The notes below the pieces were generated by a model. The model saw only the letters and a program-made list of their open reading frames with translations, ran no database searches and was not told the origin of the DNA. This document shows, piece after piece, positions 8,156-48,509 of a DNA stretch of 64,000 bases. Position 1 is the stretch's first letter. Each line of letters starts with the position of its first letter. Both the position numbers and the translations under genes were made by a program. This DNA is from Adineta ricciae (lineage: Eukaryota; Rotifera; Eurotatoria; Adinetida; Adinetidae): the NCBI GenBank assembly GCA_905250025.1, contig CAJNOJ010000174.1, positions 62,001 through 126,000 on the forward strand, read 5' to 3'.

Positions 8156-10688
8156 TTACATCCACTGTATGTGATTCCACGGTTCATTATTCAATAACTG
8201 ATTGATTAGTAATTTTGATCGAAATGTTGTGTAAAACAAATAGGCTCGAAGAGTTTTTGGTAAACAATCAAACTGAGACATCATGATGAGCATATTCACT
8301 TGTCGACGTTTACAATAAACTTCAGTGCATTGACGAATTTTCGAACGGCAAAGTTCTTTTAGTTTGTACAATGGTCGCGAACGCGGCTTACGTTCAACAA
8401 TTCGACGATAATGTACACCGAACAATATGCGTAAGAAATTACTATCATAAACTTCAATGATATCATCAATGTATGGTAATGACATTAAATGTTCGTACAA
8501 ACTTTGATCAAAAACGAAGTCTTCGTCAGAAACCCACAGTTTCATGTAAGCGACAACACTTGCCATCGATGATAAACGATCGTACGTTTGAATACGTAAG
8601 ATTGTTTTTGCGTATGAATCAAATAAAGTACGTTTAACTCGGCTACTTGATGCTAAACGAGCACAAAGCGAGATTATGTGGAATAATGTGTAAGAAAAAT
8701 GATTTCTCGACGAAGAAGGCGTTAAAAAATCAATAGAATTGTGTAAAAGATTAATTGGACATAAATTTGCTAAGCAGTAATATACCATTGGTATATGTTC
8801 ATTCAATAGAGCATAGTAAAAGGCATAGTGATTGGGTCGAAGAGAAATGTCGATCGAAACATGAGAAAAGAGGTTCTCAATGGTTTTCATTGTCGCATCG
8901 TATCTATCCGGATGAAATATCCATGAAGACATTCGTGCAAGAGCTAGAAATGGAGTCATCTGTTGGTCGTAATTAATATATGTACGCGGATGATAATATT
9001 GTTCTGGAGATTGATATGATTTGGTTGATTGAAATGGAGATCTGCAACAGCGATCAAGATAGTCTAAAAATTCCGATGAATTTGCTTCGTCTAAAACGGC
9101 TAAAATACAGACAAAAATTAAGGAGTTTATCGATAGACATATTCGAGATGTCTTACAGTTTGACACATTTCTGCAATCTCGACTGATCATTATTGTATTT
9201 GGATTAAAACCAAAATTAACTAAAGCTTTGACAATATCAAAGAACGATTTCGTACAAGCAACGACAAGTGGTTCGATGATATCAAGTCTGACGTACGATT
9301 GAGCATATTCTAAAATGGCTTGAACCAACAGCAGATCACCTGTTTGTACTGCAAGTAAGAACGGATAGTTTGATCCGTAATTATACATGGCATAGATGTT
9401 CGAATCACTTTTGATTAAACTTAGTGCATGCTGTTTATGACAGGAGTGTTCCGCGATGATATTACTATCATTACTTTGACACAAACGACGTAAACATATA
9501 TTTAATGGATGATCAAGTGAGTATAATAAATGACTATTTTGTTTTTGATAAGAGTTTTGTGTTTCATAACGATTCCATCCCAGACGATTAACACTACATT
9601 TGTACTTCAATAGCAAACTAGTGTAGTCATAGAGATTATCATGCGCAAGGCTGATACATAATGGATTGAGTCCTAGAATTTAAGAAAAACAGACTTGTTA
9701 GGTTCATTTCTCACGAAGGATCAGTCGTACCAAGGTCAATATTACAATCCGGTCTTGTTAAAAGATAATTAACAATTTGAAAACGTTGTTGATTACTAAT
9801 TGATGAGTCGAAACGATTTTCAATAGCACCTAGAATAGCTCCGTGCAAGCTGGTTTCGTAAGTGCTTGTGAGTTGATTGATATCACAGTGTTTCAATTCA
9901 ACAAGATATTTTACTAGACGAAAACGATTTTCTCGACAAGCATCTAGAAGAAGAAACGAATTAGGATCAGATTAACTTCAAACATGTGCATTTACGATAG
10001 AGAGGATATTGATATCGTTGCTGCTCGTTGTGTTGAGTTTTACAATGTTTACAATTCGATTGAACACAATCATTCGGATTGATATGACCATAATCAGTTA
10101 AATATTCGATAATATTAAAATATCCACGTTTGACAGCTAAACATAACGAGACTACTTCAGTATGTTTCCCGATTTGCCCGTAATCATGATAATTAACTAG
10201 TGTTTGAACTAAACTGTAGTTATTATTTGACACAGCCATATATAACATACTATCACTAGACAGTATCGATGCGAAAAGACTTGTTTCGACATAGTAATTT
10301 TTGATTTCATTGTTATTTTTGATTAGATGCGAGAAAAATGTTTTATGATCGTGAGGTATATAATCAGGCGAAGCACCATGCGATAACAAATTTCGCGTTT
10401 TGTACACATCATTTTCGTGTACTGCGACGTACAATTTTTCGTTTAATGTTAAATAGCCAAACAGCGAGGATAAGATGAGATCATGTAGATGCACATAGCA
10501 AAAACGATATAATGATTGAATTTGTTCAATAAACCAAGAGAAAAACGACGGAGACGGAGATGTAGTTATCGGATTCACCAATGGATTATATTCCGGCTAG
10601 AATGGTTCCATGAAAAGTTGTTATTCATGACGGAAACACTTACTGGTTTCGCCACTCTCATGTATAACCAAAAGTCTCGATTGTCCAT
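8156..10688 (-). CDS. ankyrin-repeat protein with C-terminal SOCS box (ASB-like)
   Basis: Five exons, 10688-10644, 10596-9996, 9943-9731, 9672-8156, join in phase to 791 residues (the last listed exon is uninterrupted). Degenerate ankyrin units run through the first half: EKLYVAVHENDVYKTRNLLS, SMLYMAVSNNNYSLVQTLV, SLCLAVKRGYFNIIEYLTD, NPLCISLAHDNLYDYTSLLL and PFLLAVQTGDLLLVQAIL. The C-terminus carries a SOCS-box-like segment: PLYKLKELCRSKIRQC, about 15 residues, then CLPKTLRAYLFY, matching the BC box (L..LCR) and the Cul5-box region (LP..L..YL). Such proteins are substrate receptors for elongin B/C-Cul5 ubiquitin ligases. That role is inferred. At 791 residues it is longer than typical vertebrate ASBs, with a large middle segment of weak similarity. 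The first 15-residue exon is supported only by phase and splice sites. Confidence 0.82.
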
Positions 10689-41079: not shown

Positions 41080-43745
41080 TCGTATAAAAACAATAATAAC
41101 AATAATTCTATCAGCGCATTATTATCTCCGTCCCCGAGAATGACTGATAATTAATTTATATGCGCACGGGAATTATTCAACCGGTTGTAAAATACTTTGT
41201 TTCATAGGATGGATTTTCTCCTGGAAAAAGAAGTTCTTCTTTAGTTTGCTGCTTTTTTTGTTTATTTAGCCTTTGGAATTTAATTTGCGTCTTTTCTCTT
41301 TCTCTCTCTATCATGGTCAGGTTTTTTCTCATCGTTCATTTCAACTTTGTGTTATTTTTGTATGTGAAAACAAAAGAGATGTCTTTTGATTGATATTTAG
41401 ATTAATAAATAGATCGCATTGGACGGCTAGTGATTTCATTTACCTTTCATCTTCTTTCCACATATCAAAAGCTAGAAGCGTTCTGATTAGCAGTTGAAAC
41501 ATGCAAGTTATTTTTATAGACCTATTTCAATCTTTCAAAATGCCATTATATTACTATTGCGTTGTTTCAGCTTAAAAGGATTTTTATTAGTTAAATTTAG
41601 TTTCTACTCTCCACTAGAAACGTCTTGTTTGTTTCCGAGAATATCTTACAGAGAGACATTTTACTTTCAAGAATGACTTGACAAGTGCAATTAAACATAA
41701 CTACGCACTCTGCAGTCTGATTGAATGAGTGTTGAACATTTAATGGAACACAGAGACGTTCACTTTTCGAACTCGATATTCCGAGCCGAGAAGTATTTTA
41801 ATCGAGCCAGCAAAACATTCGAATTGTTCTTCCTACGAAACATATATCAAATGATACAAATACTATTTGACCGCTGGGAAATTCTCTCACGTTCGTCGAA
41901 GAATGGCAATATACAATTCTGAAATAATTATGAGAATAACGACAACGATATTGTCAATAATTAAACCCTACAGACATACGGAGCTACGGCCTTTTAGTTT
42001 TCATTTCCTCTAAAAGAAATTTGATTAATTACGATAGACGAAATCAATATTCGCCTATATTAAAAATAAATGCTGAAAAACAGGAAAAATAGAACACTTC
42101 GTTAGGAAATTGAGACTCACTCTAGAAAGCGATCCATTGCAGCAAACGTTCCCAACCAGTAAATTTGCACCAATATGTTTCAAATAAAAAATAGCCACAC
42201 ACGCTGACCAAACTTCTAACAACTTCTTTCTTAATTAGAAAAAAATGTTTTCAATAATAACACGCAGACTTTATTTATATCTCGAATTTAAAAAGATTCC
42301 ATTTTTAATTTACTGGCTCCTCAATCTATGCACGTATATCGTCGTTCTATTTTTCCGTCTGAATTTCCGTCAATGATGAATAATTTCATAGAAAAAATAA
42401 GTATCGACGACGGGTTGAAGTGTACGCGTATGGGTTAATATAGTGTTCAACATGCTGTATTCTAAACGTCCTTCAGTACAAATCTACATATGCATACGGG
42501 TAAGGATGATCGATTAAGGTTCGAGGTATTTGATTCAAAAAGAAAGAGTGCATATTAGTCTTGCTGATTTACTGAAAGATTTCTACGCAGACAATTTTGA
42601 ATAGGTCAGGCACATTAACGTATTTTCCATTAAACAGCTGTTTTCTCTTTCTTTTTTTCCACATATGACCTCGATAATGCATATTACAATTGGATGCGTG
42701 ACTTTTAGACGTGTTTTATATATATATATATATATATTCATCTCTCTCTACATACATGATGCATATATATATTTAGGCTCGTCTGTCGAGGTAGTAATAG
42801 ATGTTGTGTTAGTATAATAAAAGAGATCGTAGTGCAATCGCTCGAGGGAATGTGAACAGAAAAAAGGTGAAGAAACAATGATGTATGACTCATGTCGGTC
42901 GTGATGGCTTGGCACATCGCCATCAGCTGTCTCGGTTTTTATTGTATACATTTCTTCGTCGATATATTGCTTACATAATCGAACTTATTTAATTATCTAT
43001 TATCTAAGAAATGTTTTCTTATGTTATATTTGTTTCTTTCTTCCTCTATTACTGTCATTGTTGTCTTGTCGTCAATGCAATCAATGACCTAAATACGATT
43101 ATGCAGACATGCCATCCTTGTCTTCCGTTTTTTTTTCTTCGTCCTCGTCGACGTCGCTTTCTACATACTTTGAAAAGCAGCAGTAGCAGACTTGCTCGAC
43201 GTCGTATTCGACCATAAGGTCGCATAGCAAAGCGCGAGAGAAGGAGAGAAAGAAAGAATAGAAAAAGAGAAAGAGATGAAAACGAAGAAAAGGAAAAAAA
43301 CAAGCGCGCTTTTGCTTCGTATGCGAGAGCTGTCGGGCACGCATATGCGAATAGAAAAAAAAATGCGAATAAGGGTGCGCAACTGATGGTGGGAGGGAGT
43401 ATGTGTGTAAGTGTAGGGATGAAGCGGGCAACGTAGAAGGGAAAAAAAAGAAGAAGGACATGAAACAGACCAAAAGTGCGCTGTATGTTCGCACACTGTG
43501 ATCATCACTACCAAGCACACACACGTGTGTTGTTCGAGACGGACTTTTTTTTCTTTTTTCATTCTCTTTCTTACATATTTACTGACGTTGAGTTCACACA
43601 TTGTATGTTATTTGTGTCTTTTTTCAGAACATTCAAATCATATTCGATTTCGACAAATAATTATATTTCTTCCTTTCAAATTCATGTTATTTTATTATCG
43701 TTTATCGAGTTCGATTACCTACGATTATTATTAAACGTACTTCTT
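41076..43745. other. gene-poor intergenic stretch
   Basis: No coding segment that I can support. The stretch contains TA runs at about 42716-42737 and 42767-42775. A purine-rich block at 43200-43460 is open on several frames by composition alone. It ends at the single ambiguous base at 43746. Confidence 0.5.
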
Positions 43746-43746
43746 N
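43746..43746. other. ambiguous base N, possible assembly join
   Basis: The only N in the window. It lies exactly at the outer edge of an inverted copy of the TBL1 last exon and 3' flank, so it may mark a contig join or a collapsed gap rather than a simple unresolved base. Confidence 0.7.
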
Positions 43747-43879
43747 CAACAATACATTGACCTAACGTTTAATCAAAGTTCATTCCAATCGTTTTTTTTT
43801 TTATTTTCGCAGATCGAGAACACACACCTAAAATTTCATTACGAAAGAATTTTTGTCAGTGTTTTGAATCACTCAAATA
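43747..43879 (-). pseudogene. inverted copy of the last TBL1 exon and 3' flank
   Basis: Read on the minus strand this segment reproduces 45782-45911 almost base for base: the end of the last intron, the acceptor, the exon coding VCVLDLRK and stop, and the 3' flank (CATTGACCTAACGTT on the plus strand here). Differences are a few substitutions clustered at the intron end and the length of a T run. Only the last exon is present. The sequence further into the window is the plus-strand TBL1 5' part and not its inverted upstream exons. It is therefore either a remnant of a second, inverted TBL1 copy or a false join. Confidence 0.85.
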
Positions 43880-43911
43880 TATCAAACACTAACGATAAAG
43901 ATATTTCATCA

Positions 43912-45859
43912 ATGCATCAACCAGCAAATACATCACCACAATCAACAAATCAGACTTTATCTGACCGTAATATGGATACATCATCAACATCTAATGGTGG
44001 AATTAACTATGGTATTTTCTCATTTGCTCGTTCTATTTTCGTTTCGTAAACTCGGATTTCCTTCTAGGACATCCAAATCCATCATCGACCGGTCAATCAC
44101 ATCACTATCATTCATCGTCCTCGTCATCCCATCCCAGTTCACTTCAATCTTCAACAACAGGTAATTATGCTCAACTGTCAAATGGAAGTGATAATAGTTC
44201 CCATTCATCCTATACGAATAATTCGAATCATATAGCAGGTTTGATCAAATCCTCGATAGAACAAAAGAAAATAAAACACGTCAGGTCCTATTTTTTCTTC
44301 TCGCCTTCTTAGTTCCCAAACATGAACCAATGGATTACGATTCAAGCAATAGTACTCATCATCATCCTCATCTTCATCCACATTATGCACGAAATCTAAC
44401 GCCAAACTCTTTATCCGTCCAAACCGGTTCATCAAATAACAATATCAATAATAACAATAATAATAATAATAATGGTTTAATTGTCAATGGTTCTATTGAA
44501 ATTCCATCAAATCGAGTTACAGTTCTACGTGGCCATGAATCGGAAGTGTTCATTTGTGCGTGGAATCCTACACATGATCTCTTGGCATCTGGCTCAGGCG
44601 ATTCTACAGCACGCATATGGAATTTACAAGGTACACGTGAACCTGAAATAATCTTACGACATTGTATACGACGCGGTGATACACAAGTACCGAGTAATAA
44701 AGATGTCACGAGTTTAGATTGGAATGTAAGTTGTACAACTAGGAGATTTTCTGTTTCATTATTTTGCCGTGATCTTTTATAGCCGTCTGGTACACAGTTA
44801 GCGACGGGTAGTTACGATGGCTATGCACGTATATGGTCATCCGATGGAAATCTAGTTAGTACGCTCGGTCAACATAAAGGACCCATATTTGCATTAAAAT
44901 GGAATAAGAAAGGCAACTATATCTTATCGGCTGGCGTCGATCGTACAACAATCATATGGGATGCTAATTCTGGTCATTGTGAACAACAGTTTTCATTTCA
45001 TACAGCACCAGCATTAGATGTCGACTGGCAATCAGATACAACATTCGCATCTTGTTCGACAGATCAAAAGATTCATGTTTGTCGTCTGAATGAATTACGA
45101 CCTGTTAAAACATTCCACGGACATCAAAACGAAGTCAATGCCATTAAATGGGATCCACAAGGACGACTGTTAGCCTCATGTTCAGATGATATGACATTAA
45201 AAGTAAATATTTTCATAAAACATCTCCACAAGTTCATCAAATTTGTTTTAGATTTGGAATATGACAAAAGATACACCTGTTCACAATTTGCAAGCACATA
45301 ATAAAGAAATTTACACGATTAAATGGAGTCCAACTGGTCCAGGAACTATGAATCCAAATGCCACATTACTTTTAGCCAGGTTCGTCCCATTATCCAATGA
45401 TCATAAACATCGAATCTAAAACTTCGCTTTAATTATTTATTTGTAGTGCTTCGTTTGATTCGACTGTGCGTTTATGGGATGTTGAACGTGGTATTTGTCA
45501 GAATACGCTTGTGAAACATTCCGAACCAGTCTATTCAGTATCATTCAGTCCTGATGGACGTCTATTAGCTACTGGTTCATTTGATAAAACCATATATATC
45601 TGGGATATTGCAGTAAGTAATCTGGATGAAGAGATTTCCTGTTTGAATTTAACGTTTTTGATTTGTTTAGCGTGCAGAAATTGTTCATAGTTATCGAGGT
45701 ACTGGTGGTATTTTTGAAGTTTGCTGGAACAGTCGTGGCACTCGGGTCGGTGCAAGTGCTTCTGACGGAACAGTGAGTTTCATTTGAATGATTTGAAACA
45801 TTGACAAAAATTCTTTCGTAATGCTATTTTAGGTGTGTGTTCTCGATCTGCGAAAATAA
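43912..45859 (+). CDS. TBL1: TBL1/TBL1XR1-type WD40 corepressor subunit, N-terminus missing
   Basis: Exons 43912-44011, 44068-44238, 44313-44725, 44783-45202, 45252-45379, 45447-45612, 45671-45772 and 45833-45859 join in phase to 508 residues. From [18 protein letters not shown] to the terminal VCVLDLRK it follows vertebrate TBL1X/TBL1XR1 nearly throughout: [82 protein letters not shown] and [13 protein letters not shown]. It forms the eight-bladed propeller. In animals TBL1 is a subunit of NCoR/SMRT-HDAC3 complexes, where it handles corepressor exchange. The region before the propeller here is only Ser/Asn/His-rich linker with a poly-Asn run. The LisH and F-box-like segments expected at the N-terminus are not found. 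Earlier exons are probably lost at the break near 43746, so the ATG at 43912 may be internal. Confidence 0.93.
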
Positions 45860-46695
45860 AAAAAAACGATTGGAATGAACTTTGATTAAACGTTAGGTCA
45901 ATGTATTGTTGTTTCTCTCTTTCTCTTTTCTTTCTTGTTCGTTTATACAAAACGCGAAATACTCGTATTGTTGTTATCTGTTGTTGTTTTTTACTACCAT
46001 CATCATCATCATCATCATCCCTCCTTTCAAAGACGATCTCACAGAAGGAAAACATTCAAACTAAACATATGTTAATCTTTTTTCTGTCTCTCTCTTTCGC
46101 TCCTTTTTGTTCATCTTCTTGCACATGTGTATTTTTCTTCTCTTGTTTTTTTTTCTTTTTCCCTGGATTCAGTCTATGTTGGACTTCTTCTTTCTTTCTC
46201 TCTCTCTCCCTTTCTTCTTTCGAAAAAAAAACGTCAAAGCAGTGATATGTATGTGTGTGTGTGTGCGAGTGTCTGACTTTATTTCTCTCGGTTTTTACAT
46301 GCGCTTGTACGTGTGTGTGATGATGAGCTCGTGTTCCATTATAAATATTTCATACGAGCACACAGATGATGACAAAGAGACAAAAAAAAGCAAAAGATGT
46401 GAACTTTGTAATTATGTTGTTTTCTTTTTTTTCTCTAAGAAATCGATTCGAGGAAGACAAACCTATCGTGCTTATTTTCAAGCGGAATCTTGGTCTATTT
46501 GTTTCTTTCTTTCGTGAGAGCAAATTCTTTGTATTAATATTCATCAGGTGAAACGATTTGCTAGTCAGTAGCGTCGAAGAACAGGTTTTTTTCTCGTATA
46601 TTTTGTAAGAACTAAATGAGTAGAATACGACAGCATATGAAAGCATGATTTTACAAAATTTTGATGAAGTATATATATATATAATACCACAGTTT
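45860..46695. other. intergenic between convergent genes
   Basis: Pyrimidine-rich DNA with many CTTT and TCTC tracts, an ATC repeat near 46000, a GTGTGT run near 46250 and a TA run at 46672-46683. The 3' UTRs of TBL1 (+) and of the minus-strand gene meet here. Long open frames in this interval reflect composition and carry no domain. Confidence 0.5.
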
Positions 46696-47688
46696 TCATT
46701 TGCACTGTTCCAGCTTTTGAGTCACTTCCGTTTGCATGGCTTTATCAGCTCTTTTACAATTTTCACTATCTAAGTTCTCCTTTGCTTTGGTGAATTTTTC
46801 TTTGGCGCCCTTATGATCACCTTTGCCTAAAAGTGCATTACCCCAATCTATATTTGACTGAGCAACGTCGATGGCCAGTCGTGGTATTAAATGTACAGTA
46901 TCATCGTTGCAAACGACTCGCACTTTAGGATATGCAGCTGCCCATGGTATGTGGAAAGAAAGATCGGAGCAAAACACATAAATGGCATAAACGTTTGGTA
47001 AATTATGCACTTTAGGTACAATCTCTTTTCCCAATCCACCTGATACCACCAGGAACACTCGTCTTCTCGTACATTTTTTTCGAATATATTCCTCACAACG
47101 ATCGGTTTGAGTTTCACACATTTCCCATTCAAATGTGCCAGTAATTGTTTCATAAATGTCACGCATTTCAAGAATTAAACCAAGAAGTGTAACGAATTTG
47201 AATCCTGTGAACTTATCTAAATCAGTGATCGCTTGCGGTGGCAATGGTTTTATTGGCGATCTATTCAATTTGTCGTTATATTCTTTAATTTGTTCTCGTG
47301 TGGCTTGTACTGTTGACGAAGCTGCAGAGATGGCAACGGTTGCAGGCTGTGCACTAGTTGCTGATGCAGCCTGAGGGGCAGGTGCTGTTGTAGGCTGAGC
47401 GGCAGGTGTTGCTGTAGGCTGAGCAGCAGGTGTTGCTGTAGACTGAGCGGCAGGTGTTTCTGTAGGCTGAGCGGCAGGTGTTGCTGTAGTCTGTGTGTTA
47501 GGCTCTCGGGAAGTCGGAGTGTTGTATGCTGACGCAGACATTTGTGGCCGTGGTGAATAGCCAGGTGCAGTTGCAGCTGTAAACTGAGCCAGCTGATGAG
47601 GCGATGCTATGGTAGGTGGCATTGGTTCTGGTCGTAATTTAATAGGACGCGGACCACTGGGTTTCAGCGGATTCGATTCGTCTGACAT
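46696..47688 (-). CDS. single-exon protein with Thr/Ala/Pro repeats, bdelloid-type family
   Basis: An uninterrupted 330-residue frame from ATG 47688 (MSDESNPLKPSGPRP) to TGA 46696. Residues 1-80 are Pro-rich. About residues 65-115 are imperfect ATPAAQPT octapeptides. The C-terminal half looks globular: DKFTGFKFVTLLGLI, RRVFLVVSGGLGKEIVPKV, NLPNVYAIYVFCSD and SFHIPWAAAYPKVRVVC. The final 60 residues are helical and Lys-rich (KGDHKGAKEKFTKAKENL), resembling one TPR helix pair. The segment VFLVVSGGLG...VP..H.LP...AIYVFC matches, from memory, a domain common in predicted bdelloid proteins, often beside TPR or ADP-ribosyltransferase domains. I have no function for it. The absence of introns contrasts with all its neighbours and could mean retroposition or foreign origin, which is unproven. 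Confidence 0.75.
   Translation of the reverse strand: MSDESNPLKPSGPRPIKLRPEPMPPTIASPHQLAQFTAATAPGYSPRPQMSASAYNTPTSREPNTQTTATPAAQPTETPAAQSTATPAAQPTATPAAQPTTAPAPQAASATSAQPATVAISAASSTVQATREQIKEYNDKLNRSPIKPLPPQAITDLDKFTGFKFVTLLGLILEMRDIYETITGTFEWEMCETQTDRCEEYIRKKCTRRRVFLVVSGGLGKEIVPKVHNLPNVYAIYVFCSDLSFHIPWAAAYPKVRVVCNDDTVHLIPRLAIDVAQSNIDWGNALLGKGDHKGAKEKFTKAKENLDSENCKRADKAMQTEVTQKLEQCK
47370..47492 (-). repeat. 24-bp coding minisatellite
   Basis: About five imperfect copies of a 24-bp unit (plus-strand core GGCTGAGCGGCAGGTGTTGC) within the minus-strand gene, each encoding the octapeptide ATPAAQPT or variants with E, S or P changes. Tandem duplication by slippage is the simplest explanation. Confidence 0.85.
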
Positions 47689-48509
47689 GGTTTTTACGAT
47701 ATTTGTGGAAAAGAAATTTCTACAGTAGAAATACAAGAAGCAGTAAATCGAATTACCCTCTCTGTCCTTTTATTTACGTGCGTTGTGATAGAGACAGTAT
47801 ATTATCTTTGTGTACTTTTGCTTTTGTCGAACTATGCTGGAAAAAACCAACTTATTGAAGGCAGTACAGAACGCAAAAATGTTTTTTCTCTCATTCAGTT
47901 CTAAAAACAAAAAAACGAGAGACAAAAATGGTAGCCATACGTATTTAATTCCCACCAATAAATAAAACTCTAGATTTAGTTTTCAACTGACCTGCATTTT
48001 TGTAGAAAAAAAAAACAGAAATGCAAACTAGAAAGAAGATCTCCGTTAAATCATTTGCATTATCTGGATTATTTGATCTCCATTGTCCATGATATACCTA
48101 ACTGCTTTAAATGTAGCTCGCTCTACATTTCTAGTAAAAAGCATGATGACCGATTAAAAGTCTTTCGTATCAGTCGGAAAAACCGATTCTCGTCCCTATA
48201 TGTTAGTTTTGCTCAATCGCATCAGCGCCATCTGTTGAGAAAGTTTTTACATTACTGGATCAAGAATTTACCTATCTCGACGTCTACCTTGATGGATATT
48301 TAAATATTTACGTTAGTTGAGGATCGAAGTATTTATCGCGTTAGCTGTCGCTCTGTGTGGCAAATAGAACTTCATCCAATGAAAAGATGAGCTTATTTTG
48401 TCACTCATTCTTTGAAAGAAAAAAAAACAAACATCTCGGTATTACACGTCAATATTTTTTTACTTCAAGCGCTGATAGATAAGTGTACACGTTGGTGGTA
48501 AATTCCAAC
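47689..48509. other. divergent intergenic region
   Basis: Separates the minus-strand Thr/Ala/Pro gene from the plus-strand SR factor, so it holds both promoters. I see no coding segment and no repeat array beyond short A runs. Confidence 0.5.

Follow-up and report, generated by a model that had tools for sequence, protein, structure and literature searches.

Does a short inverted copy of the 3' end of a TBL1 gene, lying directly behind a scaffold gap in the draft genome of Adineta ricciae, record a rearrangement of the gene, or was it made in producing the draft? The architecture of bdelloid genomes is disputed, alleles having appeared linked or palindromic on one scaffold. The window analysed is a 64,000-nucleotide stretch of assembly GCA_905250025.1 (C174:62001-126000, where C174 is contig CAJNOJ010000174.1; GC content 36.1%). 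Positions given alone are those of the window and prefixed positions are those of the contig named.

The forward TBL1 gene was located by protein homology at 43867-45859 (plus strand) and consists of part of the linker exon, the WD40 exons and the terminal exon (45833-45859). The joined WD40 exons matched the human TBL1XR1 structures 5naf and 4lg9 with E of about 1e-192 over query residues 2-350. The C-terminal WD40 propeller is present, and on homology the gene is assigned to TBL1. It resembles TBL1/TBL1XR1 (F-box-like/WD repeat protein) in the WD40 part and differs in that its LisH-coding exons fall in the gap. The observation of an earlier, sequence-only reading that the upstream LisH exons are lacking was borne out for C174, where no LisH exon was found and the N-terminal query matched only mid-linker (C174:105867-106010). 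Homology of the linker protein to the paralogue on contig C60 begins at C174:105867, and similarity at the DNA level is clear only from about position 43892.

Self-BLAST of the window gave a single inverted pair with E of 1e-10 or less, 43747-43878 (minus strand) against 45911-45782 (93.9% identity over 132 columns, E = 3e-51), a value that rules out chance similarity as its source. The arm copied consists of the 3' flank, the terminal exon and most of the last intron. The direct arm (45782-45911, plus strand), which takes in the last intron (45773-45832), the terminal exon and the 3' flank, is the same as the allele on contig C125 in intron and exon. The inverted copy described in the sequence-only reading is thus real, although its end had been placed at 43879, one base beyond the 43878 found here. 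As had also been described, it begins one base 3' of the only N in the window (43746); this single N is a scaffold gap, and the copy starts at the first base of the contig behind it. We read the segment as a fold-back contig tip. The fold-back junction zone (43867-43878, AATCACTCAAAT) is identical to its inverted partner AATCATTCAAAT at 11 of 12 bases and already lies within the reading frame of the linker exon; the spacing from 43878 to 45782 is 1.9 kb.

Counted from the contig end, the tip differs from the direct arm by a T run of 11 instead of nine bases (positions 46-47), by AG to TT at positions 89-90 and by single changes at 113, 119, 120 and 126. All six substituted bases are in the intron part and none is in the 3' flank or the terminal exon, in agreement with the earlier description of differences at the intron end and a nearly identical flank; the flank differs by the T run. 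Apart from this run, the outer 88 bases carry no substitution. The longest exact stretch common to the tip and its partner is 54 bases. Neither the TT at 89-90 nor the longer T run matches either TBL1 allele, and a search of the 1,033-contig genome set found the inner variant of the tip in one place only, the tip itself.

The sequence-only reading had proposed that two homologous contigs were falsely joined at 43746 and had suggested examining whether the flank to the left is the 3' neighbour of a second TBL1 copy. This flank instead aligns with the 5' region of the gene itself, which excludes it as such a 3' neighbour. On the contig left of the gap, a conserved TBL1 5' region (43387-43636, plus strand; promoter or 5' UTR side) corresponds to C174:105387-105636 and aligns with C60:293919-294161 (75%, 256 columns) and with C60:340053-340319 (73%); the former lies about 1.9 kb upstream of the presumed translation start in the intact paralogue. 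Right of 43746, TBL1 resumes in mid-exon. Two landmarks, 105636 and the ATG at 105912, are 276 bp apart in C174, and their counterparts in C60 (294161 and 297724) are 3,563 bp apart. Judged from these alignments, about 3.3 kb containing the LisH exons would be absent at the N relative to C60, with order and orientation correct.

Both sides of 43746 are collinear with the homologous haplotype on C125, and order and orientation agree with C60 as well, which speaks against a false join at this point. Moreover, the last intron of C125 corresponds to the direct and not the inverted arm, excluding the last exon of the C125 allele as the source of the inverted piece, and a join of homologous contigs would not produce an inverted tip of 132 bp terminating within an exon. 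In its favour, C60:304521 seems to hold a similar join and C174:128649-130090 is a misplaced piece of an allele. Taken together, we regard a false join at 43746 as extremely unlikely. A cause on the assembly side is favoured here, but not the joining of homologous contigs that had been proposed. The palindromic arrangement of alleles offered as the other reading was not seen at allele scale at TBL1.

The course of the second haplotype was followed on C125, in which C125:219201-232906 aligns with C174:91000-104748 at 92-95% identity. Beyond this alignment C125 is interrupted by a single N at 232907, behind which its sequence continues from the equivalent of C174:107764; the TBL1 body is therefore lacking in C125. 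At the site of the inverted tip the second allele is unassembled. The body of the second allele was found as a 1,442-bp piece, C174:128649-130090, which is 96.7% identical to C174:106290-107734 and has single Ns on both sides; its 3' end is on C125. The piece is situated 22 kb downstream of TBL1, just outside the window. At the matching spot C125 has no N and only 141 bp (C125:253708-253848) between the flanks of the C174 piece; because C125 is continuous there, the piece is, on the alignments, a misplaced allele fragment.

A second TBL1 locus, whose existence and LisH exons the earlier reading had proposed to look for, was found on C60. This second TBL1 pair is about 76-77% identical in the coding part and has its N-terminus: C60 exons at 296094, 297072 and 297502 jointly match human TBL1X 2xtc (E = 3.7e-28), and the Pfam LisH score of the paralogue is 23.7 bits against a cut-off of 21.6. 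The C60 homologue of the linker exon is uninterrupted, and the C60 pair has no comparable inverted copy. The genome set searched comprised 130,461,839 bases in 1,033 contigs, C1033 being 10,113 bp long, and small contigs were apparently left out. The N-terminal query gave nine matches in this set: six on C60, one in the C174 linker and two weak ones (E = 0.01 and 0.15).

These results bear on the idea that the C174/C125 pair truly lost its LisH exons and that the gap is a real absence of sequence. No LisH exon for this pair was found in the 1,033-contig set, as such a loss would predict; since the set seems to lack small contigs, the missing exons say little. The WD40 part is furthermore strongly constrained. 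Between the alleles dN is 0 and dS is 0.116 over 304 codons, with 22 synonymous and no nonsynonymous changes, and relative to C60 dN is 0.029 and dS is 1.54 over 336 codons. This constraint fits a full-length gene without proving one. A true loss is considered very unlikely, and the window most likely contains a TBL1 copy under strong constraint with its 5' part inside an assembly gap.

We judge, with moderate confidence, that DNA amplification and assembly produced the inverted segment as a fold-back artefact, a chimeric contig tip, and that the TBL1 gene is probably an ordinary one with its front part missing from the draft. The DNA of sample ARIC003 was obtained from about 200 animals of one clone followed by whole-genome amplification (PMC7943196). 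That source names the REPLI-g kit one sentence before ARIC003, where it concerns the 26 samples from single individuals, and the scaffolding steps described there name other species. ARIC003 (GCA_905250025.1) is listed with 135.6 Mb in 4,302 sequences, an N50 of 283.8 kb, an L50 of 129 and a GC content of 35.5% (PMC7943196, Table 1), and the 2018 A. ricciae assembly with 174.5 Mb and 2.1% Ns (PMC5916493).

Inverted arrangements made up 406 of the 475 amplification chimeras described by Lasken and Stockwell in 2007, with partners favoured less than 10 kb apart and priming usually at 2-21 complementary bases (PMC1855051). The tip fits this pattern in its inverted orientation and its spacing of 1.9 kb, and may fit it in the 11/12 match at the junction, just outside which further changes lie. 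The junction is inside a protein-coding exon. It differs from those chimeras in being seen in an assembled contig tip rather than in reads and in carrying changes that plain copying leaves unexplained. Pervasive palindromic reads were described from amplified tardigrade DNA in a 2026 study (PMC13265396). The 2013 assembly of Adineta vaga, with palindromes and linked alleles as described in PMC5916493, is similar in placing inverted or linked homologous copies on one bdelloid draft scaffold, whereas the TBL1 case is 132 bp at a contig tip and not of allele scale; for A. ricciae, the relevant text of the same source reports no palindromes. In the library searched we found no paper on fold-back contig tips in the A. 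ricciae assembly, an absence that says little.

The following course of events is proposed. In the course of whole-genome amplification, a 3' end displaced from the TBL1 linker exon would have re-annealed to a nearby strand bearing the last intron, at a distance of 1.9 kb, by means of the short near-match. Its extension would then have run backwards across the terminal exon and on into the 3' flank. If the LisH stretch was poorly recovered, the chimeric tip would not have been displaced and the assembler may have kept it as a contig end, to which the scaffolder could then have attached the gene's own 5' region, correctly ordered, through a single N. In a variant of this account, about 40 bases at the inner end may represent an old inverted match of real origin, from which the fold-back was primed, with only the outer part copied in vitro. 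That amplification was the cause and that the LisH stretch dropped out are both inferences. Against this account, three of the single changes (113, 119 and 120) fall beyond the 12-base junction match, and the copied arm contains the TT at 89-90 and the lengthened T run, both foreign to the two alleles; these differences could reflect errors in a tip of thin coverage.

Contig ends were surveyed at seven Ns and 13 contig starts by taking the longest exact match anchored at the end within the sequences compared. Two ends shared 121 bases with the allele, three shared 221 (two of them with each other) and one shared 184; one shared 108 bases with its own tandem repeat and two shared only 30 and 31. 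The TBL1 tip gave 54 and the tip of contig C700 gave 32, and the remaining ends gave none, often with no allele available for comparison. The values 54 and 32 equal 55 - 1 and 33 - 1, common assembler word sizes, a post-hoc correspondence that was given no weight. The value of 121 suggests that contigs break where allele identity extends over roughly one assembler word of this length. No such allele-identical stretch marks the end of the TBL1 tip. We considered whether the break arose because the arms had collapsed onto each other in the assembly graph, and rejected this: the longest exact match between tip and partner is 54 bases (77 in C700), against at least 121 at ends shared between alleles, and arm collapse therefore fails to explain the break. 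For the maximum-haplotype set, a final assembler word of 121 is named in the source text (PMC7943196).

Inverted repeats with arms of at least 100 bp within 15 kb were sought in 214,499 bases covering 34 contig ends; 20 scaffold starts were included, seven over 1 kb and 13 over 2.5 kb only, so that distant partners could be missed. The scan yielded two, the TBL1 tip and C700:1-143 against C700:450-591 (95.1%), both beginning at the first base of their contig. The five longest matches of C700 elsewhere (on C420, C5, C70, C55 and C674) start at query positions 140-144, which is the fold-back junction. One of these contigs, C55, carries a pair of 499-bp inverted arms (94.4%; C55:52600-53900) in its interior, with no N present. 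In C420 (8950-9950) there is an N at 9086 and the contig from 9087 starts about 136 bp inside an inverted arm. By sequence comparison, the C700, C55 and C420 repeats belong to a multi-copy family with natural inverted arms, and the arm cut by the contig end in C420 is probably a real one. The tips of C700 and C420 may thus be genuine repeats truncated at contig ends. C700 is thereby weakened as an independent artefact, and the C700 and C420 tips lend the artefact weak support; our confidence in the fold-back reading was lowered for this reason from fairly high to the moderate level given above. The substitution-free outer part of the tip is 88 bases in C174 (the T run apart) and 102 in C420, with the changes crowding the inner end, and the C700 tip has a similar layout except for one change at 33. 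A clean outer part fits fold-back copying of that part; local alignment also tends to place mismatches at the inner edge.

The contig ending at C420:9087, some 136 bp into a probably real inverted arm, counts against an artefact and for the alternative that the TBL1 tip is a real small inverted duplication, in which the 3' end of the gene was copied backwards into its own linker region and the intron part has since diverged. The contig would then end where the repeat and low-complexity 5' introns resisted assembly. We hold this alternative, taken as a whole, to be unlikely but deserving of weight. It would account for the six substituted bases and the T-run difference, and with AG changed to TT the frame leading from the acceptor-like TTTTATTTTCGCAG into the linker exon loses its only stop. 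The probability of losing that one stop by chance is not small, given roughly six changes within about 50 bases. Speaking against a real duplication are a junction in mid-exon, a C60 pair free of such a copy and an inner variant occurring once in the 1,033-contig set; the restriction of the substitutions to the intron part, leaving flank and exon untouched, would also be odd for plain divergence. A real exonised copy is possible. Its specific form, an intragenic inverted duplication in one TBL1 pair whose antisense last exon supplies a splice acceptor and a new linker coding segment, is judged improbable. If true, it would mean that the loss of one stop codon opened a new coding segment, that the two ends of the transcript can pair together and that such a duplication sits in one TBL1 pair of a tetraploid-derived rotifer.

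Annotation of the window TBL1 copy as truncated or rearranged is unwarranted without reads. The locus illustrates how a draft can generate the linked or palindromic signals under dispute in bdelloids: it offers a probable fold-back tip, a piece of an allele set in the wrong place and what is probably a false tandem of alleles, all three at contig ends or single-N joins. The last of these was observed in C60:258440-350670, in which the sequence left of the N at 304521 matches C60:349139-350679 (93%) and that to the right matches C60:258440-263915 (93%). The last 221 bases before this N are identical to C75:1-221 and to C60:350450-350670, and a further N is present at C60:350671. The stretch is probably a false tandem of two alleles produced by joining homologous contigs at 304521, a genuine tandem being a possible alternative.

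Two further observations were made. Window positions 45773-45911 fall in a run of 184 bases identical to C125:232908-233091 across the last intron, terminal exon and 3' flank, and the haplotypes around it differ by about 5-8%; local gene conversion or constraint would explain this identity. In the neighbouring gene, the open reading frame 46696-47769 (minus strand) contains an 81-bp direct repeat (47341-47493, offset 72 bp, 82.7%) that encodes TPAAQ-type units.
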